Shown here: positions 363-33,194 of the stretch, in pieces
How the letters are laid out: each line of letters starts with the position of its first letter
Numbering within the stretch: the first letter of the stretch is position 1
Origin: a virus
IMG/VR virus record: IMGVR_UViG_3300008120_000163
Coordinates: 1 to 33,754 of that record
Strand: one strand, 5' to 3'
Length of the DNA stretch: 33,754 nucleotides
Notes under the pieces: model-generated
Told to the model about the DNA's origin: nothing
The model's database searches: none
The model's input: only the letters and a program-made list of their open reading frames with translations
Translations under genes and position numbers: made by a program

Positions 363-423
363 AACCAACAGCATTGAGATCTGATTTGTCGATACAAGTC
401 TTTCGATTGATATGTTGTTGGTT
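363..423 (+). ncRNA. Long hairpin directly upstream of ribozyme copy A
   Basis: Bases 363-373 pair with 413-423 over 11 base pairs (one G·U). A second stem lies inside: 383-389 pairs with 394-400 (7 bp, one G·U) around a CGAT loop. The outer stem ends only four bases before the predicted ribozyme cleavage site at 427/428. A cleaved upstream transcript would therefore end in this hairpin. Bases 260-362, before it, hold nothing I can recognise. Confidence 0.6.
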
Positions 424-519
424 TGCTAATGCACCATAACTTACTTCCCAAGGGTGGGCAGTTGTATGTCAGTTTACTGTAGCAGAATACAGTCTTACAA
501 CTGAGTGCAGAGGGGCACA
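422..519 (+). ncRNA. Twister self-cleaving ribozyme, copy A
   Basis: Seen in the sequence: P1 is short (U424-A517, G425-C516, C426-G515). Then come U427 and A428-A429, P2 (430-434 with 505-509), a stem 440-444/454-458 (two G·U pairs) closed by the loop UUCCCAAGG (445-453), and a P5 hairpin (459-466 with 496-503; inner stem 476-481/488-493). One A, the P2 return strand and GAGGG (510-514) follow. Loop bases C447-C449 can pair with G512-G514, the T1 pseudoknot. Known of the family: the rice twister shares UAA at the cut site, CCCAAG in loop L4 and GAGGG in L1, with the first G of that strand (here G510) catalytic. Predicted cleavage is U427/A428. P1 is weaker than in the other two copies. Confidence 0.85.
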
Positions 520-625
520 GCAGTTGTAGTATATGCCGAGTTAGATAGATTTAGTAATCTATACTATACGTAGGGTGGCCACCTAGAATCAACGTTCAGC
601 AGGTAATACTACAATTGTTTGTATT
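428..625 (+). ncRNA. Predicted 198-nt RNA released between ribozymes A and B
   Basis: If ribozymes A and B both cut, this piece is freed with a 5'-OH at A428 and a 2',3'-cyclic phosphate at U625. It would contain the body of ribozyme A and a long hairpin in which 521-532 pairs with 606-617 (12 bp, one G·U). Inside that hairpin are a 6-bp stem (546-551/556-561, loop TAGT) and the palindrome GGTGGCCACC (574-583). No open reading frame is apparent, so the structured RNA is the likely product. Its existence is inferred from the two cleavage sites. Confidence 0.45.
521..617 (+). ncRNA. Long hairpin directly upstream of ribozyme copy B
   Basis: Bases 521-532 pair with 606-617 over 12 bp with a single G·U pair. 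The enclosed 73 bases hold a 6-bp stem-loop at 546-561 and a perfect 10-base palindrome at 574-583. It stands in the same place relative to ribozyme B as the 363-423 hairpin does to A and the 2506-2527 hairpin to C, although the stem sequences are unrelated. That suggests a shared architecture. Confidence 0.6.
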
Positions 626-767
626 AATGCATCATTCCAACTTCACAAGGGTTGGCAGTTGTAAAAAATCATCTACTATACAGTACACAAGTAATAGTTG
701 ACCAGGCTTAAAGCTGGCACTGTATAACACAACCTGTAGAGGGTACAACTGAATGCAGAGTGGTACA
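620..767 (+). ncRNA. Twister self-cleaving ribozyme, copy B
   Basis: P1 is 620-624 with 763-767 (5 bp, one U·G). U625 and A626-A627 follow, then P2 (628-632 with 753-757), stem 637-641/651-655 and loop UUCACAAGG (642-650). The long P5 arm is 656-663 with 744-751, with an inner 8-bp stem 677-684/719-726 and a CCAG/CTGG stem at 702-717. The L1 strand is GAGUG (758-762). The pseudoknot is C644-G762, A645-U761, C646-G760. Compared with copy A, P2 changes from TGCAC/GTGCA to TGCAT/ATGCA and the pseudoknot from CCC/GGG to CAC/GTG, and both changes keep the pairing. Predicted cleavage is U625/A626 and the expected catalytic G is G758. The mRNA for the gene at 799 would begin with this folded element. 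Confidence 0.9.
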
Positions 768-798
768 TAATCAAATCATTAACTAACATTTATTAACT

Positions 799-1353
799 AT
801 GAATCTAGAACAATTTTTACAGAAGTACCCTAATGTGAGTGTAACCGATTTTATGCAAGCAGCATTTAATATCGTTAATGCAATCGAAGAAGCTCGTGAA
901 GAAATTGCTGAAATAAATAGCAGAGATGAGCAAGCACTCGAACGGTTGCGTCGTAAGATGGATGATAATTCTGACGAAGAATATCAACAATCTTTTGATG
1001 CAATTAATTGGCCATCAGATGACCATGAGTATGAATCATTTAATGACTATGAATCATTTAATAGTGATGCTGATGAACAATATGTTACAGCATCTACATC
1101 ATACAATGCAAATGAAACATTCTACTTCATGAGTGATGAATATGGAGTACATGGAGGTCATGAACTAGGATGCTCAATGGCTGAACGTTGGGGTAATGTA
1201 CTTTGGAATGTTCCTAGTAGAATAGACAGAAACATTGAGGATGAATTTCCCAATCACGATGTCAAACTATCTAGAAGCTATCGTATAGAACCAGACAAAG
1301 AACACCCTTGGGCAGTAGAAAAAAGAGTCTATAGGGTAACAAAGAGACAATAG
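799..1353 (+). CDS. Acidic protein of unknown function
   Basis: A 184-residue protein with an A/T-rich leader, starting 31 bases after ribozyme B and ending in TAG. The first 60 residues are charged and predicted helical. Residues about 56-100 are very acidic and rich in Tyr, Phe and Ser, with a short tandem repeat (YESFND then YESFNS) encoded by an 18-bp direct repeat (1030-1044 and 1048-1062). The last 70 residues are more ordinary, with a W-rich patch and a basic C-terminus. I do not recognise the family. A strongly acidic small phage protein could be a DNA mimic that blocks a host DNA-binding protein, but nothing specific supports this. Another frame is also open at 926-1132, but its composition looks like a shadow of this gene. 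Confidence 0.7.
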   Translation: MNLEQFLQKYPNVSVTDFMQAAFNIVNAIEEAREEIAEINSRDEQALERLRRKMDDNSDEEYQQSFDAINWPSDDHEYESFNDYESFNSDADEQYVTASTSYNANETFYFMSDEYGVHGGHELGCSMAERWGNVLWNVPSRIDRNIEDEFPNHDVKLSRSYRIEPDKEHPWAVEKRVYRVTKRQ

Positions 1354-1429
1354 AAAGGACGTGATATTCGTCGTATTCCTAGGCATGAAGACAAACTGCC
1401 TTATACTTTACTAAATCTAAATAAACAGT

Positions 1430-1807
1430 ATGAAAACATTTACTTATCTAAAACGGGTTGAAATAGAAACAACTATTGAAGTTCCCGTAATCACCTTTGT
1501 TGCTGAAAAGGTGCGTGTATCAACAGGTGACTCATCATGGTTTGAAATGGGTTATGTACCAAGATTTAACGGACTCACATCATGTGAATACGGTAAAGAA
1601 ATGTGTAACTATAATGCCATGTGGAAGATGCTTGAAAAATATGTAGCAGAAACATTTAGTAAAACTAAAGGTTACGGTGCAGGTTATGGTTCAATAGACT
1701 ATCATGTCTATGCAGGTAAGGACATAGATATGCCCGAACTACCTAAGATTCCAAGAGAATGGAATGATGACCATGCTGACCTTGTTGCAATGTTCAAAGG
1801 TCTATAA
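1430..1807 (+). CDS. Hypothetical protein
   Basis: A 125-residue soluble protein with no signal peptide, membrane segment or motif that I can assign. The N-terminal third looks like beta-strands (alternating hydrophobic residues to about residue 30). The middle holds a glycine/tyrosine stretch (GYGAGYGSIDYHVYAG), and the C-terminus is acidic. The 76-base gap before it is A/T-rich near the ATG, with no Shine-Dalgarno sequence. It lies between the ribozyme-headed acidic gene and the gene at 1901, in the block of unrecognised early-type genes. Confidence 0.65.
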   Translation: MKTFTYLKRVEIETTIEVPVITFVAEKVRVSTGDSSWFEMGYVPRFNGLTSCEYGKEMCNYNAMWKMLEKYVAETFSKTKGYGAGYGSIDYHVYAGKDIDMPELPKIPREWNDDHADLVAMFKGL

Positions 1808-1832
1808 GAGCACAAATTAATTATATGGAAGC

Positions 1833-1857
1833 ATCACAGGGTTTATAACTCTGTGAT
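1833..1857 (+). promoter_or_regulatory. Strong hairpin in the leader of the gene at 1901
   Basis: Bases 1833-1843 pair with 1847-1857 over 11 bp (one G·U), leaving a three-base loop or a slightly larger one after breathing. No T-run follows, so it does not look like an intrinsic terminator. It lies 25 bases after the stop at 1807 and 43 bases before the ATG at 1901. It may stabilise the 5' end of a processed mRNA. A GTG inside its 3' arm (1853) is in frame with the downstream gene but is an unlikely start. Confidence 0.5.
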
Positions 1858-1900
1858 CTTCCGACTAAATTTGGATTTACATAAATCAACATATAAAATC

Positions 1901-2479
1901 ATGAGTTACAACACTCCAAATTCTGGATCATTGACTGGGTTGTCAATGAATCAGACCTTGCTCGTGTCTGCTAGGAAAGTTGCAGGCCAAAAATTACAGT
2001 TAGAATTTGCTGAGATCTTGGAAAAAGGATCTGCTCCAGTAAATGTTCTAGCGATGTTCAACCAATCAGACAATCGTTTCTCTCAAGGAGGAGCTCGTCG
2101 TGCTTGGATGACAGTAGAAGCAATTGATGCATCAAAACTATTAGGTGTTGATCTATCAGACTCTGCTTCTTGGGGTGTTGATTCATTAGGTCGTGAGATC
2201 TTAATGCTTAACATTCTAAACCCTCAAGTATTAATTGGTGACGAACTAATTAACTTGAAGGTTGAGGTAGTGGAAACTACTGAAGGTACAGAATGGCAAA
2301 AGTCTAACTTAGAGACTTCTGCTAAGCGTAAAGGTAAAGACGGTGATTTTATCATGCACAATGGTAAGCACATCTTTGCTAACACACGTATTGCTCTTAA
2401 CAAAGCTAACCACGTGTTCTTAACTGCTGATGCTAGTGTGGCTAACACTGTATCTGCATCTGATAGTGTTTTCAACTAA
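1901..2479 (+). CDS. Hypothetical protein, possibly highly expressed
   Basis: A 192-residue protein read from the ATG at 1901, whose leader reads AACATATAAAATC. An in-frame GTG at 1853 would add 16 residues but lies within a hairpin, so I rejected it. The sequence is rich in Ser, Asn, Ala and Leu with a beta-rich centre (residues about 75-125) and a small-residue C-terminus. I recognise no family. It has its own structured leader (1833-1857) and is followed by a terminator-like hairpin and ribozyme C. It is therefore framed by RNA elements on both sides, which suggests a separately processed, abundant mRNA. A nucleic-acid-binding role is conceivable but is not shown by any motif. Confidence 0.7.
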   Translation: MSYNTPNSGSLTGLSMNQTLLVSARKVAGQKLQLEFAEILEKGSAPVNVLAMFNQSDNRFSQGGARRAWMTVEAIDASKLLGVDLSDSASWGVDSLGREILMLNILNPQVLIGDELINLKVEVVETTEGTEWQKSNLETSAKRKGKDGDFIMHNGKHIFANTRIALNKANHVFLTADASVANTVSASDSVFN

Positions 2480-2505
2480 ACATTATCAAAAAACCTACAA
2501 TAGGG

Positions 2506-2527
2506 TGTCAAGGTTAATTCCTTGACA
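2506..2527 (+). terminator. Terminator-like hairpin upstream of ribozyme C
   Basis: A perfect 8-bp stem, TGTCAAGG (2506-2513) with CCTTGACA (2520-2527), closes the loop TTAATT. It is followed by a T-rich stretch (TTCTATTTGTATT) that includes the 5' strand of ribozyme P1. It could act as an intrinsic terminator for the gene ending at 2479, as the protective 3' hairpin left by ribozyme cleavage at 2540/2541, or both. Confidence 0.6.
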
Positions 2528-2531
2528 TTCT

Positions 2532-2606
2532 ATTTGTATTAATGCACCACAACTTGATTCCAAAGGTCAAGCAAGATTTTAATCTTGAGTGCAGATGGGT
2601 ACAAAT
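2532..2606 (+). ncRNA. Twister self-cleaving ribozyme, copy C
   Basis: The most compact copy, 75 bases. P1 is 8 bp (2532-2539 with 2599-2606, one U·G). U2540 and A2541-A2542 follow, then P2 (2543-2547 with 2589-2593), stem 2553-2557/2567-2571 with loop UUCCAAAGG (2558-2566), a 7-bp P5 hairpin (2572-2578 with 2581-2587, very tight loop), one A, and GAUGG (2594-2598). The pseudoknot is C2560-G2598, C2561-G2597, A2562-U2596. The hairpin stem (CTTGA/TCAAG) has a different sequence from A and B but is fully paired. The strong P1 makes this the best candidate for an active ribozyme. Predicted cleavage is U2540/A2541 and the expected catalytic G is G2594. Confidence 0.92.
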
Positions 2607-3232: not shown

Positions 3233-3397
3233 ATGAAAAAATCAAATGCTTATCTTATTCTTTATTTTGCAACAATCATTGCAATAGCTTGTATGACATC
3301 TTGTAGTAGCTCTCAACATGGGTACAATTACAAGTCTCATGCTAAGCATCGTAATACAGGTCCTAGTAAATGCTATAAAAAGCATAATAAGTGGTGA
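3233..3397 (+). CDS. Small lipoprotein
   Basis: A 54-residue protein beginning MKKSNAY, with a hydrophobic segment (residues 7-20) ending in a lipobox-like MTSC. Cys24 would be the lipidated residue after signal peptidase II cleavage. The mature part is only about 31 residues: a Ser-rich start (CSSSQHG), then a basic region rich in His and Lys. It would sit in the cell envelope of an infected Bacteroidota host. The leader AAAACTAATCAGTTATG recurs almost exactly before the next gene. Small phage lipoproteins are known to cause superinfection exclusion in other systems; I infer only that this is possible. Confidence 0.6.
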   Translation: MKKSNAYLILYFATIIAIACMTSCSSSQHGYNYKSHAKHRNTGPSKCYKKHNKW

Positions 3398-3410
3398 AAA
3401 CTAATCAGCT

Positions 3411-3617
3411 ATGGGTTATATGAAGTGGGTAAAAGGCCTGATGGATACAGGTCGACACACAATTCTTCGTGAGAAATACGACGAAGCAATTGAGTGTAAG
3501 TTCGAGAGAATAGAATTTGACAATTCTAATCTTGATGTTACATTTGTAGGTCACGTTCTTGACTTTATTGACAAGAATGATGATGCTCATACAGCAACAA
3601 GACATGAAAAGCTCTGA
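3411..3617 (+). CDS. Small hypothetical protein upstream of DNA polymerase
   Basis: A 68-residue soluble protein, started at 3411 after the leader AAAACTAATCAGCTATG, which is a near copy of the leader of the upstream lipoprotein gene. It has a mixed charged composition, basic N-terminally and acidic in the centre (FERIEFDNSNLD), and no known motif. Its last 14 bases overlap the chosen start of the DNA polymerase gene in another frame, so translation of the two is probably coupled. An opposite-strand reading of the same region is also open but is most likely a shadow. Confidence 0.55.
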   Translation: MGYMKWVKGLMDTGRHTILREKYDEAIECKFERIEFDNSNLDVTFVGHVLDFIDKNDDAHTATRHEKL

Positions 3618-7068: not shown

Positions 7069-7622
7069 CGGAAAGAAAGAAGTTTTACTCAACGAAAAGA
7101 AGGAAACATTTACTGAGTTTGATAGAGTCTTCACGGGATTCCTCGATAGAATTTACGAAGTCACGAGACCCGAAGGCAATATCGGAGATGATGATGAAGA
7201 TAGTGGAGCATCTGTTCCACATTCCTAGAGAAGAATTCTTATCAGAGAGTCGTATCAGGGACTATGTTGTACGTCGTACTTTAGTTGTCAATCTAATAAG
7301 CATGCATACTCATCACAGAGATGTGGAGATTGCTAAGGTTATTAATCGTGACAGAACTAGTGTGATTCACATGCAGAAGCTTCATGAGGATCTTATGTTT
7401 TCTGATGGAACTTATCGAGAGTATTTCGAGAGAGCTTCTAGTCTTTATGCAAGAGCTAATTATTTACCAAGAGTAGAAGATGCAACATTAGATGGCATCA
7501 TTGAAAAGATAGTAAAGCTTAATGAAGAAGTAGAAGCCCTCAATGGAATGCTAGGCAACCTATTAGTTAACGTAAAATCTAAAGACAATGTCACAAGTGA
7601 AGAGCAAACTTTTAGCAATTAA
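7065..7622 (+). CDS. DnaA domain IV-like helix-turn-helix protein
   Basis: A 185-residue protein. Residues about 60-110 resemble the DNA-binding domain IV of bacterial DnaA: a helix with VVRRTLVVNLI, then DVEIAKVINRDRTSVIHMQKLH, which parallels the DnaA signature (IG..FGGRDHTTVIHA..K). The turn RDRTSVIH aligns with RDHTTVIH, the part that contacts the DnaA box. No ATPase domain is present, so it is not a full DnaA. A coiled-coil-like stretch follows (residues about 143-172). Its place between the polymerase region and the helicases suggests an origin-binding initiator, or an adaptor that occupies host DnaA boxes. It overlaps the upstream gene by four bases (ATGA) and the downstream helicase gene by 35. 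Confidence 0.7.
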   Translation: MTERKKFYSTKRRKHLLSLIESSRDSSIEFTKSRDPKAISEMMMKIVEHLFHIPREEFLSESRIRDYVVRRTLVVNLISMHTHHRDVEIAKVINRDRTSVIHMQKLHEDLMFSDGTYREYFERASSLYARANYLPRVEDATLDGIIEKIVKLNEEVEALNGMLGNLLVNVKSKDNVTSEEQTFSN

Positions 7623-20919: not shown

Positions 20920-23900
20920 TTATTTCGTTGCTGTAGCAGGAAGATCAAACCACTTAGAAGCTGTAGCTGGATCAGATGATTTTTCAATACCCCCTAGTAT
21001 TGGAATTAATGCTTGGAACTTAGCTAGCAGTTTGCTATCTCCTTTCTCATGAATTCCAGACTTTCTTTTGTAGTATAGTTCTGATGTATCCCCTGTAAAT
21101 ATTGATGGAATAGCTTGAAATGCTACCATATCTATAAGTTCTATTGATTTTGTAATAGGACGTACAGTTGCTGTAGGGGAATTAGCAGTCTTTAAGAATT
21201 CCATTGGTCTTACGAACTGAGTCAATTCAGTTTGCATACGTAAAGCCTCGTAAATAACGAAGCTCTCAAACCATGAATCATCTTCATCATCGTCATCTGA
21301 AAGTGACATTACAATCAAAGCACATAGAGTCCAGAATGCAATAGATACTGCAGACCTTCTCATGTTTTGCTTCTCCATGTCTGTCATCATCTTGTAAACT
21401 TTAACACCGTTACCAGCATTCTTATAAGTTTCTTTCATGAATCTCCACATAGTTTCCATTGTACCTTCTGAGATAGTTCCAAGCTCTAAGTCACGGTGGA
21501 TTCCCCCACGAAGACCGTTGTGTCCATAGTGTTTACGAAGAGATGGAATGAAGTAACGACGGAATAGCATAATCAATTTACCGTACCATCTTCTTTGAAG
21601 AATAGCATCATCAAATTTAGTTTTGACTTGGTTGGTTCTCTTGTTGATTCCAGAGATTTTAGACATGAATCTGCTTCTGTTGAAGTTAACAACCTTAGGG
21701 TCTATTCCAAATCTACCAGTCTTCTCATCTTTAACAAATACATCCCAAAGATTTGCATCTTCCCCCTTCTCATTTTTAATGACATTACCGTCTTTATCTT
21801 TAAGCTTTCCTCTGTAGCTGTCCATCAAGGCAAGCATTCTTGTTACTGCTGTCTCGTGCTCAGCAATAGTTTGTAATGCCATTGGCCCTTCTTGTAAAAG
21901 CTTAAGCATTCGTGGACCAGTCTTGTCTTCTTTTGTAGATCCAAGTACTTCCCCTAATGCATCGAAGTATCTAATAGCTTGTACAATCTTAGTTTGTGGG
22001 GCAAATGTTTTAAAGTCTTTCAAAGATCCTAAGCCACCATTACTTGTAAAGTGGTAGATGCTCTTAGCCCACGTCATATTCTTTTTATTAAAGAACTGCT
22101 GTGAGTGTGCCTCTTCCATCAAACGTACGTTATCGAGTAACATCTGATTGGTGGACTGAAGTAAGTTACCTGCTAAGTTAGCTAATGCAGTAAACGATGC
22201 TATTTTATTAGATAGCTTATTTGCTGAGATCTGTCTCCCAAATATATTTAAAGCAGACTTTAACTCTTCTTCCCCAAAGAATATTTTATCAATCCATTCG
22301 GACAAGTGCTTGAAGTTATTCCCTCCTTTACCTGCAGTCTGCATCTTAGTTCCTTTTAGGATCTTTGACATTCTGTGTAAAAGAGGATTGTTATCTGCTG
22401 CTACTGCCTGTACTTCTCTGTTTTCTATAATATCTCTCATTAACATTACTGACCCAATAATTTCAGATTTACTCTTAAACATATTGGCCATTCCTCCGAA
22501 GAGAATTAATGAGCTGGCTATGTCTCTACTTACTAATTTAGAATCAGTAGGATTTGTGTAGAAGATAGGAATTGTTTTGGCTCTAGCTTCTTTGTTGGCA
22601 TTGATAGCATCTCCGTAATTTACATCCGTAGATAAGAACTGAAATGAATCTTTTACAAAGTCTTTAGCTGCAGTGAATGCTCCGTCCTTCTGAACCTTTT
22701 CTAACCCTTCCGATCTCACTGATGGGAGAATGTAGCTGAACTTATCCCAAGAATTTTTTGCAAGGTTATTATTTCCAAGCATCTTTTGCTTCTTGTAGTA
22801 GAAGCTCATCATGCCCTTGTAATACTCAAAAGCAGGAGCATTCTTTTTTAATGCTTCATACTTAGGATTTTTGTAGCTATCATTTGGACGAACTGCTGAA
22901 ATTTTCCACTGCCCATTTACAGAGTCATACATCTTGTCCATCAATGATTTTAGAGAAGCTTGTTCTACTTCTAAAACTTGAATCTTATCTGTATCTATTA
23001 AAGCTTTGTCTTTTGAACTTTCTTCTAAAAGTTTTTTTCTTACAGTCTTAAGTTTGTCTACAAGTACGTTATATTTTTCTTGAGAGTCTTTACTTGGGAC
23101 AGAATTTTCTTTGTACCACTTAGCTACTTCTTTATAGTACTCTCTTACGGTTACCTTGTTCTTTAACCACTCTTGAATTTCTTCGTCCCCCTTAACTGGT
23201 TTACTGTACTTTTTAGCTAAATCTTCATACATTTTAGATTCAGCACGTTTGTACCTAGTAACATCAAACTCTTGTACAAAAGATAGTAAAGTTGTTTTTT
23301 CTGACTGCCCTGTTTCAGGATTGTACGTCATATACTCTACCTCTTCTATTACATCTTCATTAAATTTATTAGGATTAAGTCCTGACCCTTTTGATTTTTC
23401 GAAATTTTTATATACTTCTGCTAATTCGTAGATGTCATCTTGTGTTTCATCATTAGCTTGATACATTTTATCCTTAAGCATAGATGCAAACATCTGTATC
23501 CCTACTTGAGAAGAATAAATGATTGGGTCTAAAAGGTAACTAAATGCAGACTTATCTTTTTGAGCTTCAGTAAGTTCATTTATTAAAGTCTGTCTAGTTA
23601 CTTTTTTGTTCTCTAACTGCTTGATGTTCAATGCTATAAGAGCTGCAAATTCATCAGCAGGAGCTAACTTCTGATTTTTTATTTTGTTGTACTCCTCATC
23701 TCTCTCAATAGCTACTAAACGATTGTTATCTTTTATATTCTGTATAAGCTTAATAATCTCATCGTTTACATCATCATTTGAATACTCCATTAATAAGTCT
23801 GCCATAAGAGGGATACCTATTTCTCTGTATGTCTCTTCTACCAAGTTCATTCTATAAATGGCTTGGCTAATTTTCTTTTCAAATACTGATAAAGATTGGA

Positions 23901-25473
23901 ACTTTGGGTCTTGTTGAAGTTGTTCAAAGGTTAATCCTTTTCCAAGTCTTACTAAGTCTTTAGAAACTAGTAATCCAATCTTCTGCATTATGCTATCTTT
24001 CCCAGCTCTTCCACCATAGAAATCTCCTACCCATTCACTAACCTTGTATAATTCATGGATAAGTTGTAATCTTTCTCTAGTAGGTAAAGTCTCGTTGTAC
24101 TTTTCATTAATTTTATCTAAATTTTCTTCAGCTCTATCTACAAGTCTTGAAGCATAATTTACAAACTCTACTAATTCTTCTACGTCTTTAATCTTGTCTA
24201 ATCTTTTCTGCATTAAAGCTAGCTTCTCTACTGCAGTGTCATTCACATCTCCAGGAACTCTTTTAAGTTTGTCGATGCTTTCTTGTGTTACAATACGAAC
24301 ATCATCTACAACTTTCATAAAGTCTTCTTCTTTCTTAGTAAGCTTACTATCAGCCATTAAGAAAGTAACAGAACCTTTTAAATCTGCAGCAGTGTATCTT
24401 CTCTCCAAAAGCATTCGTGTAAGTTCTTCTACTGCAGATGGTTTTGCCTCTGTACCGAATAACTTTGAAAGAGCTCTTACCACTCTATTGAATATTCTTT
24501 GAAAAATATTAGGATTGTCTCTTTTTATTCTAGCTCCACTTAAACCCATAGCAGTTACAAGAACTTCTTTTTCTAAAGCTTTTTCATCTAACTTTGGGTA
24601 TGCTTTTTTAATTTCTTCGTAAAGGTTTGTAGTCTTTAACTCGTTGATAGCTCTAACTACTACAGGATGATCTTCCCCTAAAAGCTCTACAAGGATGTGG
24701 CTAAACTCATGGATGTGAGTATCTTCTGTCATCAACAGTGGGTTAAGTACTATTGTTAATACTTGACCAGGATTGTTAATAACTCTACCCTTTACTTCAA
24801 GTGTAGGGTCTATTTTAACTTCAACATTTATCCCAACTTTTGCAAAATCAGCTATAAGATTGTTGATATCTTTTTGAACAGAAGGCATTTCTGCTCTCTC
24901 CATATCCTCAAGATCCAAACGACTGTCCATGTCTTGGAACATATCTAACTGTCTAGCAGTTTCATTTGACATTCTCTTTGTCAAATTCTGCTCTGCATTA
25001 GTAAGTCTTAAATCTTCACGATTAAATGGAATTACTAAAGGCTTAAATGTATTCTCAAACTCATAGGCATTTAGAGCAAACTCGTATGGGTCTATTCTGT
25101 TTGGAAGTTTAGGGGCTATGTTTGGAGACAGAGACAGAGTAGCTTGTTCAGAAATCTGAATATCGTAATTTGTCTGATTGTTACTCTTGTTTCTAAACGG
25201 TGTAATTTGTACAAGTTGTACAGGTGAACCATAATACAAAGCTGCAACGGCATTCAAGTCAGCCACTTCTTGTAAAAGCACATCCTGCATTGCAGGAGAG
25301 ATTCTTCCTGAAGAGCTTATCACTCCATCGTTGTAAAGCAAGTAGCTGATCCTGTTAGGATCTACTGTATCATTACTTGCTAATTGAGTGTCTATGTATT
25401 CAATAACCTTACTAGTAGTAGGAGATTTTCTTACATTTCCGTTTTCGTCTGTTTTAAAGAATCCACATGCCAT
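20920..25473 (-). CDS. Giant zincin-domain protein of the virion transcription module
   Basis: Read from the ATG at 25473 (MACGFFKTDENGN), 1517 residues. An earlier in-frame start at 25503 would overlap the preceding gene and add an unlikely ten residues. The N-terminal quarter carries a zincin motif HEFSH (255-259), the metal-binding HExxH of metallopeptidases. A long charged, probably coiled-coil region follows (about 350-800). Near residue 1370-1392 there is one hydrophobic segment (VSIAFWTLCALIVMSL) followed at once by SDDDDEDD. In crAss-like phages the gene next to the giant RNA polymerase encodes a similar giant zincin protein thought to be injected with it; I infer the same here. The metallopeptidase may cut a virion or host protein. 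Confidence 0.8.
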   Translation of the reverse strand: MACGFFKTDENGNVRKSPTTSKVIEYIDTQLASNDTVDPNRISYLLYNDGVISSSGRISPAMQDVLLQEVADLNAVAALYYGSPVQLVQITPFRNKSNNQTNYDIQISEQATLSLSPNIAPKLPNRIDPYEFALNAYEFENTFKPLVIPFNREDLRLTNAEQNLTKRMSNETARQLDMFQDMDSRLDLEDMERAEMPSVQKDINNLIADFAKVGINVEVKIDPTLEVKGRVINNPGQVLTIVLNPLLMTEDTHIHEFSHILVELLGEDHPVVVRAINELKTTNLYEEIKKAYPKLDEKALEKEVLVTAMGLSGARIKRDNPNIFQRIFNRVVRALSKLFGTEAKPSAVEELTRMLLERRYTAADLKGSVTFLMADSKLTKKEEDFMKVVDDVRIVTQESIDKLKRVPGDVNDTAVEKLALMQKRLDKIKDVEELVEFVNYASRLVDRAEENLDKINEKYNETLPTRERLQLIHELYKVSEWVGDFYGGRAGKDSIMQKIGLLVSKDLVRLGKGLTFEQLQQDPKFQSLSVFEKKISQAIYRMNLVEETYREIGIPLMADLLMEYSNDDVNDEIIKLIQNIKDNNRLVAIERDEEYNKIKNQKLAPADEFAALIALNIKQLENKKVTRQTLINELTEAQKDKSAFSYLLDPIIYSSQVGIQMFASMLKDKMYQANDETQDDIYELAEVYKNFEKSKGSGLNPNKFNEDVIEEVEYMTYNPETGQSEKTTLLSFVQEFDVTRYKRAESKMYEDLAKKYSKPVKGDEEIQEWLKNKVTVREYYKEVAKWYKENSVPSKDSQEKYNVLVDKLKTVRKKLLEESSKDKALIDTDKIQVLEVEQASLKSLMDKMYDSVNGQWKISAVRPNDSYKNPKYEALKKNAPAFEYYKGMMSFYYKKQKMLGNNNLAKNSWDKFSYILPSVRSEGLEKVQKDGAFTAAKDFVKDSFQFLSTDVNYGDAINANKEARAKTIPIFYTNPTDSKLVSRDIASSLILFGGMANMFKSKSEIIGSVMLMRDIIENREVQAVAADNNPLLHRMSKILKGTKMQTAGKGGNNFKHLSEWIDKIFFGEEELKSALNIFGRQISANKLSNKIASFTALANLAGNLLQSTNQMLLDNVRLMEEAHSQQFFNKKNMTWAKSIYHFTSNGGLGSLKDFKTFAPQTKIVQAIRYFDALGEVLGSTKEDKTGPRMLKLLQEGPMALQTIAEHETAVTRMLALMDSYRGKLKDKDGNVIKNEKGEDANLWDVFVKDEKTGRFGIDPKVVNFNRSRFMSKISGINKRTNQVKTKFDDAILQRRWYGKLIMLFRRYFIPSLRKHYGHNGLRGGIHRDLELGTISEGTMETMWRFMKETYKNAGNGVKVYKMMTDMEKQNMRRSAVSIAFWTLCALIVMSLSDDDDEDDSWFESFVIYEALRMQTELTQFVRPMEFLKTANSPTATVRPITKSIELIDMVAFQAIPSIFTGDTSELYYKRKSGIHEKGDSKLLAKFQALIPILGGIEKSSDPATASKWFDLPATATK

Positions 25474-25490
25474 AGTACAAATATACGGTA

Positions 25491-28400
25491 TTATATTGAG
25501 CAAGACATATTTCCAGACTCAATTGGTAATTTTCCTCTGTCTAACAAGTATGTGCTGTTTCTCTCTATGTTGTTTTTAATCTGTGGAATTACTTCTTCGT
25601 TTGCTATTCTCATGTAGTTTAGCCCGTAAAGTTTAGTAGACCCCTTGGTTGTGAAAGTTCCTGTAAGCATTCCATACTGTGTCATAATAGATCCATCTCC
25701 AGCTGTTACTGGTCCAATTTTACCAAACACAGCACTTGTACCAACTTTTTGATTTCTAACTATTATAAAGTTTTCAGTACCACTATCTAAAACAGTTTCT
25801 GTTGTTGACTTAAGTATATCACTGTTTACCCTTCTAACCAAGTTGCTCCCTCCAGCTCTCATTTTTCCAAATGCAGCCATGTAATTAACCATGTCTTGTG
25901 AATCAAAGTACTGGGACTGTCTAGCTTTAAATGATTCTTGTCTGAAGAAATCTAAGATGCTTATTCTGTTTTGAACTTCTATTCCAGGTTCTGATGGCCC
26001 TTGCTCAACCTTCACAGGAGTTGTGAAAAACTCTAAAGGAACAATATCAGCATATGAGCTAGCACTTTGTCTAAATCCATTTACAAAGAAGCTGTGCATT
26101 GCTAACTTTTCGGCAAAATCTTTTACTTCTTTTATACCTTCATTAACTTTTGGATCAGTGTAGTTACCTTCACTATCCATTGTTTTATCTCCTGGTACAT
26201 AGAATTGTGGGTTATACAATAGGTTGTATAATCCATCTGTATAAGATTGCTTTTCCCCTGCAGAAGTTTTAAATGTATTGTCAAACTTAATTCCATAGTA
26301 CTTAGCTTCTGTATCTGTATCAGGCTCTAAGTTGGCTATAAATGGGTTTGTATTTAATGCAGGGTACTTCGTCTTTAATCCTTGAAGTCTTGTATAGATG
26401 TTATCATTTGCTTTGTTGTACAAGCTTGACATGTTGTTCATAAGGGAAGCAAATGGAGAACCAGGCTTCATAAGCATCATGAACATCAAGTTGTAATCAA
26501 TCAACTGATGCATTTCAGGGGTTAACTCTTCAGTACTTACATTTCCTAATAGTTCTTTCTTGAAGACTTTGAATGATTCAGATAGTCTAGTAGGGAAGAA
26601 CACACCTGCAAACTCAAGACCGTTTCTCAATAGATTCTCGTAACCTCTTTCCATTCCATAGATAGATTTCTCTCCAATGAATTGGTCAGTAACGTTATCC
26701 ATAGAAGTTGGTTCGAAGAATATTGGAGTCTTGAGAGAATCTTCACTCTGATCGAATGCATCAGCTCTATCTAAGTAAGACTGAATAGAACCTATTCGTC
26801 CCAATCCATCCATTGAATCTGGGGTTACTCTCTTTCCTAGTTTCATAAGAGCTGACCCAGCTTCGTAGAACTTCATAAAGTTAGCAAGCATCTTAAGTTG
26901 CTCATCTACATTTCTGTTCTCTTTGCTTAAGTTTTCTAACTCTGCAACATCCATGTTGAATGTACCAGGCTTATTTAAATTTAAATAACCATTAGGGTCT
27001 TTGAGCTTTTTTCTAAAGGTCTTATAAGCTTGTTTTAAATCTCGTAAGTTTCCTGCTTTTGCAGTCTCAAAGTAATCTGTAAATTCTTTAATCAATGGTT
27101 GATTTAAGAACAAAGAACAGAATCTTGAAGAATACTCTGGGAAGAATCCTGAGAATAAAACTCTGATACGAGATGTTAAAACTGTATCGTTAAGTTCGTA
27201 TTGTACAGGAAGTTTTGCAGCATCCACGGCAGCTGATAAAAATAGAGACATACTTTTATCTGTTGGGTAAGATCTGCTTGTTTCATCAAATGGATTTTCA
27301 AAAGCAGTTTTTATGTAGTCTCTATATTCTACTCCGTTGATTTTAATAGCATAATCGTTGTGCATTCTAACACTGCCGTGTTGTAACACGTTACGTGCAG
27401 CTAATGCATTTGCATAGATACCACGGAGTTTATTTCCAAGAGTACTACGACGAGCTGTAACAGCTTCTGTCTTGTAGTCACTCCAGTCTAATTCTTTTGC
27501 AAGTTCTGGGGACTTAGATTTAATCTCGTCCACAACAGTATTTAATGTAGTATCATCAAGTGGAGTAAACACTTCTTTGAAGTGAGCAGGATTTGAGTAC
27601 ACTGCCTCCATCAAATCTAATATCACATTGTTAATCTGTTGATTAGACAACTTCGATAAGTTCTTTGACTTAAGTACACTTGCATAGTCTACAGATACTT
27701 TCTCTAGTTGCTTAGTCTCTTTATTAATTCTAACCTCTGGGAATAAGAGATTTAATTTATCGACGTCAAAGTCAGATCCCATCAACTTAACAAGTTGTCC
27801 TGGTACAACCACTGCTTTTGCATAATTATTTGGTAAGATTTTAGCAATCTTAAGCATAACTACAGAAGCTTTATCCTGATTAGGGATACGGTAACCTACA
27901 ATTCTTCTAAGTTCTTCTGGGATAGAGTCTAAAGATTGTCCTGGCTGTATTCCAAACTTACGAGCTACGTCCTCACGGATCATAACTTCTGCATGGATTA
28001 CCCTCTTACCATCTTCAGATATTTGCAAGAACTTCAAAGCACCACTTCCATCAGCTTCTGATCCTCCTAACTGTGTAACTTGAACTGCTTCAAACCCTTT
28101 AACTTTTTGTTTGAACACATCATTGTTTATTACAGACATTATGATGGACTCATACTTCTTGTTGTATAGAGGTATGTCAAGTGGAGCCACGAATCTAGGA
28201 GATCCATCGTTTTCAAATACGATATCTAAAGCTCTCTCATAGTTAGAGTGAAGCTCTTTTGTTCTAGCCTGCTTGAGTACTTTCTCTCTTACAGTTTTTA
28301 ATACTACTAGTTTTGCTTCATTTATCTTGTTGATATCATTGCTTTCAGCAGCTGCATAAAGTTTAGTCAATCCAAACTCGTCTTCAACTTTCTTTGTATC

Positions 28401-31400
28401 TCTAGCAAGTTTCTCTTCTACAGCAGCATGGTAAAGGTCTTTTAATTCTTTACCTGAAATTTCTGTATCTAGAATTCCAGGAGAGATTTGATATATGGTA
28501 TCATCCTCAACATTGGCCACCATATTTTTTTTAATCTGACGATTGAGAGCATTTGTTGGATCTTCTTTTGCAGAAGGGATAAATTGTGGAAATCTTAATC
28601 CTGATGAAGAGTGAGTGTTAACCCCTGCTTCTCCAAGCAGTCCTAGTCTACCTGTATGTTTGTAAACGTTTCTCTTAGATAGTTTTTTACCAGATACAAA
28701 GTTTACTACATGTACTGGCTTTAACCCTTGATACTCTTCTACAGCTTCCATTCTACGACGTAAGTCTTCTAAGAATGGGAAGTTTGTAGTATATGATTTT
28801 AATAGCACAGAGTAAGAGTTCTTTTGAGAGTCTATAGATAATGTTCTTCCAACATTGTTGTAAGACATTTTTTCGTAGTAACCTTTATGCCCCAATGTTG
28901 GGACTGGGTCTCCAACTTTTTTACCGTCAGGGACAAACCCTGGTTGGTATACAAACTCTCCTGTTACTTTATATGCTTTGTATGCTTCTTCATCTTCTCT
29001 CTCCCACTTTCCTAAACCTTGCATAATACTTCTATGCATATCCAAACTAATGAAAGCTTGAGCATCTGTAGAATCATATTTGCCTGGTCTAAATGCATCT
29101 GCAATAATTTTTGCTTCTGTGCTTGAGACACCACTTTTAACTAACCCATTATAGATATTTGTAGCCTGATCATTTGCTTCTTTTTCTTGTTCAGCATTTA
29201 GATTTAACTTAATATCTCTCATCACAATCTCATTGAACTCCTTCATCATTCCATAAGATTCACTGATATCTCCAACCATAACCATTTTGGTTCCAGGAGT
29301 AGTCAAGTGGCCCATACGTTTGTAGAAGTCTTCTTGATTTTTATGTAGAGCTCTGTTACCACGGAATAGTTTTACTATTTCATTTCTCATGATAGCATTC
29401 TCAACAACAAATCCTTTGAGCAATCCTTTTAAATCTACTCCGATAGCTCCACTCATTCCAACTTCTCCTAACTTCCCTGCTTTAGTTAACTCTGCCTCTA
29501 AAGCTAAAGCTTGTGCAGAAAAGAATTCAAGCATCTCATTAGTCATTCTATCTAAACGAGCATCAAATAGTTTCTGAGATTCTGCATCCATAGACTTGCC
29601 TACATAGTCCATAACCTTGTCACTCATCTGAGTAACTCCGTTCATTCTTGTACCAGTTACATTCTCTGTTAAAGCTTCATCTGTTACTATGTATTTACCA
29701 TCTTGGTTCTTAGCTCTGAATTGGAAGAAAGATTCTTTGAATGCATTACCAAGGTATTCTCCATTCTCTACAATTCTTGTAGGGTCTCCAGGAGCTGTGT
29801 GGTAACCTTCTTCTAAATCTGCATAATCTACTCTTCCATTTAAAGCTCCTCTTACAACATCCTTAGCTTGTTTTACTCTCACTAAGTCTTGCACGATCTG
29901 AGCTTTAATCAAATCTTTATGTGACATGAATTGCTTAGAGAAAGCATTTTTGCTAATTCTAGGAACCTTTACAAATGTGAATTTGTCACGGTCTGATTGA
30001 ACAGGGACAGCAATGTATGTATACTCACTATCTGTTCTGTTGTTAATGAAAGCATTTATAAGAGTAACCATTGTATCGGCCTCTGAGAAGTCTTCATATG
30101 CAAGAGCTTCTTCATACTCTGATCCCATCTTGCTTGCATCAAAGTCAAATACCCCAAACTCTTCTAAGAATTTATTATCCATTAAATGTTTAAACAAGAC
30201 ACTTGTAAACTCAGGTCTTCCTTTTACATTGATGAATTCGTCTTTAAGATATTCTTTTAGTAACTGAGCAGAATTTTCAGATCTCTCTTTCAATATACTT
30301 ACAATCTGAGCCATGTGTGTCTCAGTGTTTGTACCGTAGATTGCTTTTCCCTTTCCATTGACAAAGCTGATACCTGCAATAGGGATAGTTGATTTGAAAA
30401 GCTTTGCAAAATCTATAGCTGCAGATTTACGAGCAGTTATGAAATCTAAGTTTCTGTCATTCTTTACCCCTACAAACTCTTCAAGTTCTGATCCTTTCCC
30501 TCTAGTGAAATCTCCTACTTGACGGATGAATGATAGTACTTGAGTTTTAATAGTTCTCAAAGAATCTACCCCAGTCTTACCATCTATTCCATTATCAGCA
30601 ATTGATTGTAATATTTTTTGTGTGTCTCCTACATTGGTATTGCTACCTACATATAGACCTAATTCAAACATAGCCTGTGCAAGATGTTCTACAACAGGAT
30701 TAACCTGTCCGTCTATACTAGCTACATTAACTACTCCAAATTTTGGGAGAAGTTTCTCAGCTTCTTTCCAAGCTTTTGCAGCTGCAATTACCTTATTCTT
30801 GTTAGTAGTAAGAACTTCTACAACCGTCCCATCCTCTTTAGTAACAACATCCTTTTTGTACAAAGCCATTCCATCTACTTCAGAAACAAGTGTATTCTTC
30901 CACTTCTCTGCAATAGCTGTTGGAATGTCTTTACGATTAGGATTGAAGACTTCAACGTAGTTTACTTTGTTATCTACCTTTTGCTTTAACATTACAAAGT
31001 CAGTATTGCTAAGTGCAAATGCAGAGAATATCATAGCCTTTTCAGAGTCTGATAATTCGTTTAAAAAGTTAAGGACATTTCTTAAGTGAGGTCGTAGCTT
31101 TACTTCTTGCTTAAGAGCATTAACCATTGCAGTGTAAGTTTGCTTACCACTGAATATGTTCAGCAATTCTTTGAATACAACATCTCTGTTTAAATATGTT
31201 TTAACCCCTAAGCTATTATATTCATTTGACATAATAGTAGATAGAAGTTCTCTTACTCTTGCTGTAAGTCTTTTTGCTGGACTAATTTCCATACTACTTT
31301 GTCCGTATATTTTTCCTACTGCCTCATCGATGATTGCAAATTCATCGTTTAATTCATCTAATTCATCCTCAGCTTCTGAAGGAGTTTCTAGGTCAGTATC

Positions 31401-33194
31401 GTATTTAAACTTAGAGTCAATGTATATTCCAGCATCTGTAAGTCTGTTTACCAATGCTGTTCTCCAACCTTCTTGAATAATATTTCCAGATTTAGACTGT
31501 ACTACATCTCCCCAAGTGGTGTATATGTTTTTGTAAACTGTTCTTTTACGTAGATTGTCCCCCATTGCAAAAACTAAATTGTTTTTAGCAAGTATATCTC
31601 TAAGAGCTTGTAGATTTTCTGGAGATTTATTTTCTGTATAGACTTCTTCAGCAGCTATAGTTTCAATCATTGCAGCATAGTCTGTTGTCATATTTAGACT
31701 AGACCCGTCTGCTTTAGCATATATTTTTGTTAAAAATGAGTTTGCTATTGCTCCTTTATTTTCTCCAGATCCTAAAGCAACTGATGAGTCAAAAGTATCT
31801 TTATAGTCTTTTCTCATCTTTAAGAAATCCGTATATAAAACATCGACAGCATCTGTAATAGTTTGACCCCCCATTCCAGGACGGGTCAAATAAGCTGTCT
31901 TTGGTCCTACAAACTTTTGTGGGTTTCTCATTACTCCTCTACCAAGAATAGAAGTGTTCATTCTATTGCTTTCAATCAAAGAGTAAACCTGCTTTAGTCC
32001 TACACTGTCTGTGAACATTGCTTTGATGAAGTTCCAAAGATCTTTAAAGAACTTAGCAATTTTACCAGGAAGAGATTTTTCAGTAGCTTGATCAGTAAGA
32101 ACGTAGTCTCTAAATTCTTCTGACATCTTCTCTTCTAGTACAAGCTTAAAAGCATCTTCATTAGATATGTTTGGGAATTGCTTTTTAATATCAGCTATCT
32201 CAGCATCAGTAGGTGTTCCAAAATTCTTTTCAGCTTCTGCATACAATTGCTGTCTCTGTTCTTCACTAAGCATTGTTCTGAATACTAAGTGGTAAGCTTC
32301 GTGGTATTCTGTGCCTACTTCAGCAGCAGACCATAGGAACACAGAAGCATTCTCTACATATCCATGAATTTCTTGGCCTCCTACAGACTTAGCTGTTTCA
32401 AATATGCTAACAGAATTCTCTCCAAATCTTTCTGCTACCCAAGCTTTTGCCTTTTCAGCATTTATTGTTTGAGTAGATGATACTTGTGCACTAGTTCTAA
32501 ATGCTTTATTGCTATTTACAAACTTTTGAAATCCTTTTATATCTTGTTTATTTCCTAATATATGAATTTGTTCTGGTTCAAACACTGTAATATTCTCTGC
32601 CCTTGTTATTGATGGTGATATTATGCCATCATAATTATTAGCTAATAAAGACTTTTTATAATTTCTGTAAGCTTCACTTTTTTCTATTAAACCTTGTACA
32701 TCTTTAAATTTAGTAGATAGAATACCTGGTTCATTAACTATCTTTTTAATGTTTAATATTGCTGGATATTCTTGTTTCCATTCTAAATTTCTAGATTTAA
32801 GTAATTCTTTAAACTTTGTTTTATCTGTAGTAAAGAAAAACCCTAACCAGCTATCAAAATCTCTTGTATTTGTGCTAATAAATTTCTTGTCAAATTTTTC
32901 AAATTGAGCATTACTTAGATGATATACAATATTTTTTACTTTACTATCAGGAAATATAGAATCTAAATATTGAGAATATTGCTCCTCATTTCCAATAGCT
33001 TTTAACTCAGGACTAGATTGAAACAAGTCACTTACACCTGACTTAATTTGGATTTGTTGAGGAACAGTTTGTACATAAAACATAGAAGGCACATTGCCTC
33101 TGTATTTATCCCAAAGGAAGTATGCTACATTTTCACCTTGTGCACTTACAAGGTTTTTCCATTCTTCAGAGTTTATGTTTGGACAAAATGCCAT
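25491..33194 (-). CDS. Giant virion RNA polymerase with ART-like and zincin domains
   Basis: A single 2567-residue protein. Residues 1808-1812 read DFDVD inside MGSDFDVDKLNLLFPEV, the DxDxD motif that holds catalytic Mg2+ in the double-psi barrel of two-barrel RNA polymerases, including phage phi14:2 gp66. The region just before it (GYRIPNQDKASVVMLKIAKI and PNNYAKAVVVPGQ) fits the conserved approach to that barrel. The N-terminus differs from a plain polymerase: residues about 88-214 (YHLSNAQFEKF, LGFFFTTDK, NYDGIISP, VFEPEQIHIL) resemble the ART-PolyVal type of ADP-ribosyltransferase domain. HEAYH (298-302) is a zincin motif with a possible third ligand in EEKMSEE near 354. It would transcribe early genes after injection. 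The next leftward gene starts 17 bases after its stop. Confidence 0.9.
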   Translation of the reverse strand: MAFCPNINSEEWKNLVSAQGENVAYFLWDKYRGNVPSMFYVQTVPQQIQIKSGVSDLFQSSPELKAIGNEEQYSQYLDSIFPDSKVKNIVYHLSNAQFEKFDKKFISTNTRDFDSWLGFFFTTDKTKFKELLKSRNLEWKQEYPAILNIKKIVNEPGILSTKFKDVQGLIEKSEAYRNYKKSLLANNYDGIISPSITRAENITVFEPEQIHILGNKQDIKGFQKFVNSNKAFRTSAQVSSTQTINAEKAKAWVAERFGENSVSIFETAKSVGGQEIHGYVENASVFLWSAAEVGTEYHEAYHLVFRTMLSEEQRQQLYAEAEKNFGTPTDAEIADIKKQFPNISNEDAFKLVLEEKMSEEFRDYVLTDQATEKSLPGKIAKFFKDLWNFIKAMFTDSVGLKQVYSLIESNRMNTSILGRGVMRNPQKFVGPKTAYLTRPGMGGQTITDAVDVLYTDFLKMRKDYKDTFDSSVALGSGENKGAIANSFLTKIYAKADGSSLNMTTDYAAMIETIAAEEVYTENKSPENLQALRDILAKNNLVFAMGDNLRKRTVYKNIYTTWGDVVQSKSGNIIQEGWRTALVNRLTDAGIYIDSKFKYDTDLETPSEAEDELDELNDEFAIIDEAVGKIYGQSSMEISPAKRLTARVRELLSTIMSNEYNSLGVKTYLNRDVVFKELLNIFSGKQTYTAMVNALKQEVKLRPHLRNVLNFLNELSDSEKAMIFSAFALSNTDFVMLKQKVDNKVNYVEVFNPNRKDIPTAIAEKWKNTLVSEVDGMALYKKDVVTKEDGTVVEVLTTNKNKVIAAAKAWKEAEKLLPKFGVVNVASIDGQVNPVVEHLAQAMFELGLYVGSNTNVGDTQKILQSIADNGIDGKTGVDSLRTIKTQVLSFIRQVGDFTRGKGSELEEFVGVKNDRNLDFITARKSAAIDFAKLFKSTIPIAGISFVNGKGKAIYGTNTETHMAQIVSILKERSENSAQLLKEYLKDEFINVKGRPEFTSVLFKHLMDNKFLEEFGVFDFDASKMGSEYEEALAYEDFSEADTMVTLINAFINNRTDSEYTYIAVPVQSDRDKFTFVKVPRISKNAFSKQFMSHKDLIKAQIVQDLVRVKQAKDVVRGALNGRVDYADLEEGYHTAPGDPTRIVENGEYLGNAFKESFFQFRAKNQDGKYIVTDEALTENVTGTRMNGVTQMSDKVMDYVGKSMDAESQKLFDARLDRMTNEMLEFFSAQALALEAELTKAGKLGEVGMSGAIGVDLKGLLKGFVVENAIMRNEIVKLFRGNRALHKNQEDFYKRMGHLTTPGTKMVMVGDISESYGMMKEFNEIVMRDIKLNLNAEQEKEANDQATNIYNGLVKSGVSSTEAKIIADAFRPGKYDSTDAQAFISLDMHRSIMQGLGKWEREDEEAYKAYKVTGEFVYQPGFVPDGKKVGDPVPTLGHKGYYEKMSYNNVGRTLSIDSQKNSYSVLLKSYTTNFPFLEDLRRRMEAVEEYQGLKPVHVVNFVSGKKLSKRNVYKHTGRLGLLGEAGVNTHSSSGLRFPQFIPSAKEDPTNALNRQIKKNMVANVEDDTIYQISPGILDTEISGKELKDLYHAAVEEKLARDTKKVEDEFGLTKLYAAAESNDINKINEAKLVVLKTVREKVLKQARTKELHSNYERALDIVFENDGSPRFVAPLDIPLYNKKYESIIMSVINNDVFKQKVKGFEAVQVTQLGGSEADGSGALKFLQISEDGKRVIHAEVMIREDVARKFGIQPGQSLDSIPEELRRIVGYRIPNQDKASVVMLKIAKILPNNYAKAVVVPGQLVKLMGSDFDVDKLNLLFPEVRINKETKQLEKVSVDYASVLKSKNLSKLSNQQINNVILDLMEAVYSNPAHFKEVFTPLDDTTLNTVVDEIKSKSPELAKELDWSDYKTEAVTARRSTLGNKLRGIYANALAARNVLQHGSVRMHNDYAIKINGVEYRDYIKTAFENPFDETSRSYPTDKSMSLFLSAAVDAAKLPVQYELNDTVLTSRIRVLFSGFFPEYSSRFCSLFLNQPLIKEFTDYFETAKAGNLRDLKQAYKTFRKKLKDPNGYLNLNKPGTFNMDVAELENLSKENRNVDEQLKMLANFMKFYEAGSALMKLGKRVTPDSMDGLGRIGSIQSYLDRADAFDQSEDSLKTPIFFEPTSMDNVTDQFIGEKSIYGMERGYENLLRNGLEFAGVFFPTRLSESFKVFKKELLGNVSTEELTPEMHQLIDYNLMFMMLMKPGSPFASLMNNMSSLYNKANDNIYTRLQGLKTKYPALNTNPFIANLEPDTDTEAKYYGIKFDNTFKTSAGEKQSYTDGLYNLLYNPQFYVPGDKTMDSEGNYTDPKVNEGIKEVKDFAEKLAMHSFFVNGFRQSASSYADIVPLEFFTTPVKVEQGPSEPGIEVQNRISILDFFRQESFKARQSQYFDSQDMVNYMAAFGKMRAGGSNLVRRVNSDILKSTTETVLDSGTENFIIVRNQKVGTSAVFGKIGPVTAGDGSIMTQYGMLTGTFTTKGSTKLYGLNYMRIANEEVIPQIKNNIERNSTYLLDRGKLPIESGNMSCSI

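Follow-up and report, generated by a model that had tools for sequence, protein, structure and literature searches.

What are the three similar elements that lie between the genes of this phage, and are they RNAs that cut themselves? A first-pass annotation of the 33,754-nt stretch analysed here (IMG/VR virus record IMGVR_UViG_3300008120_000163; the window) had read them as twister-type self-cleaving ribozymes of a crAss-like phage.

Three copies of one RNA fold in the window

Base-by-base re-reading confirmed the three elements and their anatomy at the positions first given: one RNA fold occurs three times, at 420-521 (E1), 618-769 (E2) and 2533-2605 (E3), and runs 5' to 3' from P1 through UAA, a 5-bp P2, P4 with its UUCCCAAGG cap, a P5 hairpin and a single A to P2' and GAGGG. 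The window holds three matches to the core pattern TAATGCAY-N5-12-TTCNNAAGG, where 0.00 were expected; 100 dinucleotide shuffles gave none. The pairing-preserving differences among the copies, in P2, in the P4 stem and in the pseudoknot T1, are real, and the predicted cut steps (U427/A428, U625/A626 and U2540/A2541 in E1, E2 and E3) and candidate active-site guanines (G510, G758 and G2594) fall where they had been placed. The features are as follows, with scores from the covariance model R1, which was built from eight short-P5 copies, E3 among them.

420-521, + strand: E1, putative twister-variant RNA (59.9 bits, E = 1.1e-15; outside the model seed). UAA 427-429; P2 430-434/505-509, UGCAC/GUGCA; P4 440-444/454-458; loop 445-453; P5 459-503 (45 nt); A504; GAGGG 510-514; T1 CCC(447-449)/GGG(512-514); P1 weak, three pairs and then a mismatch
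521-618, + strand: P5-like stem-closed domain (CAGUUGUAGUAU...AUACUACAAUUG), standing alone between the tandem copies E1 and E2
618-769, + strand: E2, putative twister-variant RNA (63.6 bits, E = 6.6e-17; outside the model seed). UAA 625-627; P2 628-632/753-757, UGCAU/AUGCA; P4 637-641/651-655; loop 642-650; P5 656-751 (96 nt); A752; GAGUG 758-762; T1 CAC(644-646)/GUG(760-762)
799-1353, + strand: gene for 184 aa of unknown function, directly downstream of E1/E2
1901-2479, + strand: gene for 192 aa, directly upstream of E3
2533-2605, + strand: E3, putative twister-variant RNA (79.3 bits, E = 5.6e-22; itself in the model seed). UAA 2540-2542; 7-bp P1 2533-2539/2599-2605; P2 2543-2547/2589-2593, UGCAC/GUGCA; P4 2553-2557/2567-2571; loop 2558-2566; P5 2572-2587 (16 nt); A2588; GAUGG 2594-2598; T1 CCA(2560-2562)/UGG(2596-2598)

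All three copies are intergenic, E1 and E2 between ORF 77-259 and the gene at 799-1353, and E3 between the gene at 1901-2479, whose stop it follows by about 60 nt, and an ORF at about 2632-2925; the presence of several copies in leader or intergenic positions supports the first-pass interpretation. Homologues of gene 799-1353 stand directly downstream of the motif in two other contigs (L030 and L038), and a 61%-identical homologue of gene 1901-2479, whose product is without Pfam or PHROG match, stands directly upstream of it in L030. The region 516-622, which spans the domain between E1 and E2, folds at -31.4 kcal/mol (z -3.42; 0 of 200 shuffles as low), and a similar linker likewise separates two tandem copies in another contig (L013:1272-1381).

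The label crAss-like holds loosely for the window, whose DNA polymerase best matches those of gut crAss phages at about 29% identity, and fails as a name for all carriers of the motif, which extends far outside the window phage's own group, many motif contigs being without a recognisable homologue of that polymerase. It suits the window and a small number of relatives but does not describe the RNA family at large. On the minus strand, 20920-33194 holds two giant ORFs of 1527 and 2567 aa, at what we take to be the site where crAss-like phages carry large RNA polymerase proteins; neither has a PHROG match, nor the 2567-aa ORF a PDB match.

Distribution and covariation of the fold

Pattern scans of IMG/VR returned 9 and then 43 contigs, and scans that left the P2 bases unconstrained raised the total to about 70 phage contigs; every match inspected was a full fold, and the copies are intergenic. 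The P2-free patterns were also run twice against 84,980 bacterial and archaeal genomes (257 Gb), yielding no match and one match, the latter (Anabaena, L116) judged to be chance as its P2 is incompletely paired. Because these scans gave so little, and nothing genuine, chance matches must be rare and the element is a feature of phages. When the region and individual motifs were compared by BLAST with 50,697 phage records, no real match appeared, so no cultured phage carrying the motif came to light there.

In a non-redundant set, R1 detects 72 copies at E<=1e-10, the three of the window among them and 69 elsewhere, and in their alignment 96.9% of cells are paired, as against 77.8% in shuffles. 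Two-sided changes occur at 19 of the 21 pairs, and the covariation score is 0.560 versus 0.183 in shuffles, with none of 500 shuffles as high. By helix, 85.6% of cells are paired in P1, 100% in P2 and 99.4% in P4, with two-sided changes at all pairs; every pair of P2 (5/5) and of P4 (5/5) covaries. T1 is 99.5% paired, with two of its three pairs covarying in the 72 copies, and the third varies too, as UCC/GGA in a copy outside the alignment (L012); the types seen are CCC/GGG, CAC/GUG, CCA/UGG, CCU/AGG and UCC/GGA. The contigs are to some degree related and shuffling leaves that relatedness in, a concern addressed by two further observations: pairing falls to 29-49% when the partner is shifted by 1-3 columns, and the P2-free scans returned P2 helices as varied as UGCAC/GUGCA, UGUAC/GUACA, UGCGU/ACGCA, AGUAC/GUACU, AUUAC/GUAAU and AAUAC/GUAUU. 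Covariation, which had been proposed as a check on the first reading, is thereby supported for P1, P2, P4 and T1 of the 72 aligned copies. The scan patterns fixed UAA, UUC..AAGG (part of L4) and GA, so that invariance at these bases is partly ascertained. The C and A of L2, the closing C-G of P5 and the A 3' of P5 were left unfixed in the first two scans, yet are invariant in the best 60 copies.

The same pattern of change is seen between orthologous copies. L030 is a close relative of the window phage, with a DNA polymerase 93% identical; relative to E3, its copy beside the 1901-2479 homologue shows compensatory changes at P2 (UGUAC/GUACA), P4 and T1 (CCC/GGG versus CCA/UGG). Upstream of its homologue of gene 799-1353, L030 has a single copy (L030:7225-7331), with compensatory P4 changes relative to E2. 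Because this single copy has a 5' flank that matches the one of E1 and a 3' flank that matches the one of E2, E1 and E2 are probably a tandem duplication. The two have since diverged (CCC/GGG and UGCAC/GUGCA in E1, CAC/GUG and UGCAU/AUGCA in E2), such that their halves no longer fully match each other. Within the same closing stem, the P5 interiors of E2 (96 nt) and the L030 copy (50 nt) are unrelated.

Comparison with canonical twister

At gathering thresholds no Rfam model matches the window; with permissive filters, positions 350-2700 gave only chance matches and no twister model at E<=10, and a direct search with the twister model RF03160 (gathering cut-off 67.2 bits) was likewise without match at E<=10. 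The first-pass annotation had named the lack of a twister hit as an outcome that would speak against it and, taken literally, this one does. We consider it outweighed, because R1, made from the new RNAs alone, finds real twisters, because the helices covary and because the RNA changes places with hatchet (see below). The twisters that R1 detects are canonical ones in L121, L122, L118 and L126 (19.8-22.7 bits, E 2e-4 to 2e-3) and in L017 (22.2 bits).

Canonical twister has P1, a 4-bp P2, P4 and a T1 of three pairs plus an A-A pair (PMC5408937). Its T2, in which GC of L2 pairs with two bulged L4 bases, has been called its most critical tertiary contact; L4 holds an essentially invariant G-C and a U.A trans pair, the nucleotide 3' of the cut is a conserved A, the active site contains a G, and altered P2 length has been suggested to disturb the active site (PMC5408937). 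The new RNAs share with RF03160 the stems P1, P2 and P4 in twister order, the UAA with its U|A step, the UCCCAAG loop on P4, the strand order and the T1 that joins L4 to the GAGGG of L1. Canonical phage twisters also carry UAAUGCA, UCCCAAG and UGCAGAGGG, with a UGCA/UGCA P2, and the two strand orders can be set side by side:

Phage twister: UAA-UGCA-GC...G-UCCCAAG-CC...UAAA-UGCA-GAGGG
New RNA: UAA-UGCA-YC-AY...U-UCCCAAG-G...C[P5]G-A-R-UGCA-GAGGG

The bases around the twister cut site are kept, with AA after the cut in 72/72 copies, the U before it in 71/72 and the L1 GA in 72/72 (positions partly fixed by the patterns). Also kept are the U and A of the L4 trans pair, whereas the L4 G-C is replaced by U...G in 72/72, these loop bases being part of the search patterns; L4 as a whole reads U-UCCCAAG-G, in place of G-UCCCAAGC-C. 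The GC:GC T2 is absent, and with L4 ending in GG at most one C-G is possible. L2 reads YCAY where twister has GC (plus P3), and its Y pairs with the P2 R (57 C-G, 14 U-A), such that P2 has five covarying pairs to twister's four; the UAAA strand has become C[P5 hairpin]G-A-R. On the simplest mapping, the first T2 base would now pair with R as the fifth P2 pair, the second would keep one C-G, and P5 would have taken over part of UAAA.

Part of the twister interpretation therefore stands (the layout, the U|A site and T1), and part does not: without Rfam match, T2 or L4 G-C, this is not an ordinary twister. We class the new RNA as a twister variant and not as a member under a strict definition. 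Twister-sister (RF02681), whose other strand is cut and for which no pseudoknot is known (PMC5408937), has only a vague layout in common with twister; the motif has no match to RF02681 and, unlike twister-sister, has T1. One phage contig does carry a twister-sister (L121:5163-5234, 39.2 bits), with a canonical twister about 2.3 kb away.

The subfamily would represent a previously uncatalogued branch of twister, carried by at least about 70 phage sequences from the environment. A subfamily of this size missed by current Rfam models would widen the known sequence limits of the ribozyme, and would mean that a twister can make do with a reduced and replaced T2 pseudoknot.

Neighbouring ribozymes and the proposed function

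Pistol, hatchet and twister-sister were first found by their proximity to ribozyme-associated genes and other ribozymes (PMC10085705). Among 50 contigs (the window and 49 motif contigs), pistol scored above cut-off in three and hatchet in six, and one holds a canonical twister (57 bits, E 1.8e-11, below its cut-off); in the window itself neither RF02679 nor RF02678 matched at E<=0.01.

L031:1122-1190, L109:1501-1562 and L110:1501-1562, motif's strand: pistol (RF02679; 42.8 and 63.4 bits), 0.4 kb upstream of the motif; L109 and L110 nearly identical here
L027:10917-11072, L021:10222-10383, L113:460-597, L114:1501-1659, L115:1501-1637 and L037 ~2079-2215, motif's strand: hatchet (RF02678; ~80 bits), 0.9-1.6 kb upstream of the motif

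All ten known ribozymes are on the motif's strand and only 0.4-1.6 kb away on contigs of 16-122 kb (combined p 2.6e-8 for same-strand proximity; 2.5e-7 without one near-duplicate contig). Moreover, one orthologous gene (300-303 aa, 53-58% identical) has a hatchet upstream in L037 and L005/L115 and the motif upstream in L014, L016, L018, L026, L029, L042 and L092. Upstream of this gene, hatchet and the new RNA take each other's place; their gene position is alike, while hatchet is unrelated to the new RNA in sequence and structure. Pistol, also phage-associated, is unrelated in fold. Because the motif adjoins known ribozymes and swaps with hatchet, a self-cleaving function appears much the likeliest.

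We put at roughly 85% the probability that the three elements cleave themselves and belong to a new subfamily of twister-variant ribozymes, which cuts phage mRNAs between genes. The RNA would fold into P1, P2, P4 and P5, and the P4 loop would dock on the internal loop L1 via T1, as in twister, which would bring the U|A step with which UAA begins next to the guanine of the L1 GA; cleavage there would leave 2',3'-cyclic phosphate and 5'-OH ends. Polycistronic phage transcripts would be cut in intergenic stretches or leaders (in the window, after gene 1901-2479 and twice upstream of gene 799-1353), which would set mRNA ends and separate neighbouring messages. A scheme of phage-encoded RNA circles was dropped: none of the 50 contigs tested encodes RtcB, which could turn twister products into circles.

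A descendant of twister could have kept the fold and lost the active site, for example through loss of T2, and now serve as an mRNA stabiliser, a nuclease block or a regulatory leader. The altered T2 and L4 G-C pair, the enlarged and highly variable P5 domain and the lack of recognition by Rfam models would all suit such an RNA; on the other hand, UAA and the L1 GA are kept in the 72 copies but for one U-to-A at a tolerant U (a constancy partly ascertained), and the motif substitutes for hatchet at one locus and adjoins pistol, hatchet and twister elsewhere, all of which makes a non-catalytic role unlikely. It is more improbable still that an independent ribozyme or RNA class came to look like twister by convergence: although L2, T2 and the 3' junction differ and RF03160 finds nothing, the UCCCAAG loop, UAA, GAGGG, T1 register, stem order and P2 UGCA are the same as in canonical phage twisters, which R1 itself detects. 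Finally, short conserved blocks that recur in several copies per genome might be DNA or protein-binding repeats (a promoter, operator or recombination site) whose dyads merely resemble RNA stems, but such repeats do not need a pseudoknot and four helices covarying at a fixed register, nor would they explain the constant strand orientation of the copies relative to nearby known ribozymes, and we give this explanation almost no weight.

Taken as self-cleaving twister variants, the elements would provide a clear natural case of unrelated classes (hatchet, pistol and a twister type) in equivalent intergenic phage sites, and the exchange makes the use of self-cleaving ribozymes by phages directly testable. 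More speculatively, and at long odds, the hypervariable P5 interiors (40-96 nt, with cassette-like exchange) might be sensor or docking domains, making up a phage library of switchable twister ribozymes, and tandem copies with incompatible T1 and P2 might cut independently and release a defined RNA. As a group, inner P5 domains fold no better than shuffles. In four contigs (L018, L041, L042 and L083) the P5 interiors have in common a conserved internal loop (about TAGATGTATGT / ACATACTACCT) that encloses a varying hairpin and could be a docking or binding site. A general use of different T1 by tandem copies was rejected, as about 8 of 15 same-contig pairs differ by hand count, not significantly more than the ~0.4 of pairs expected; CAC/GUG occurs only in multi-copy contigs, a post hoc observation.

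Some individual copies deserve mention. One with P2 and P4 deletions (L007:7421-7527) has the look of a decayed ribozyme near an intact one at 7084-7163. In L004, L011, L040, L090 and L093 a protein of about 460 aa is encoded downstream of the motif; that of L004 matches DUF2828/DUF7788 (Pfam) and is, we presume, TROVE/vWA (Ro60)-like. At L020:3230-3311 (- strand), a tRNA gene (3311-3426, - strand) begins directly at the 3' end of the motif copy.
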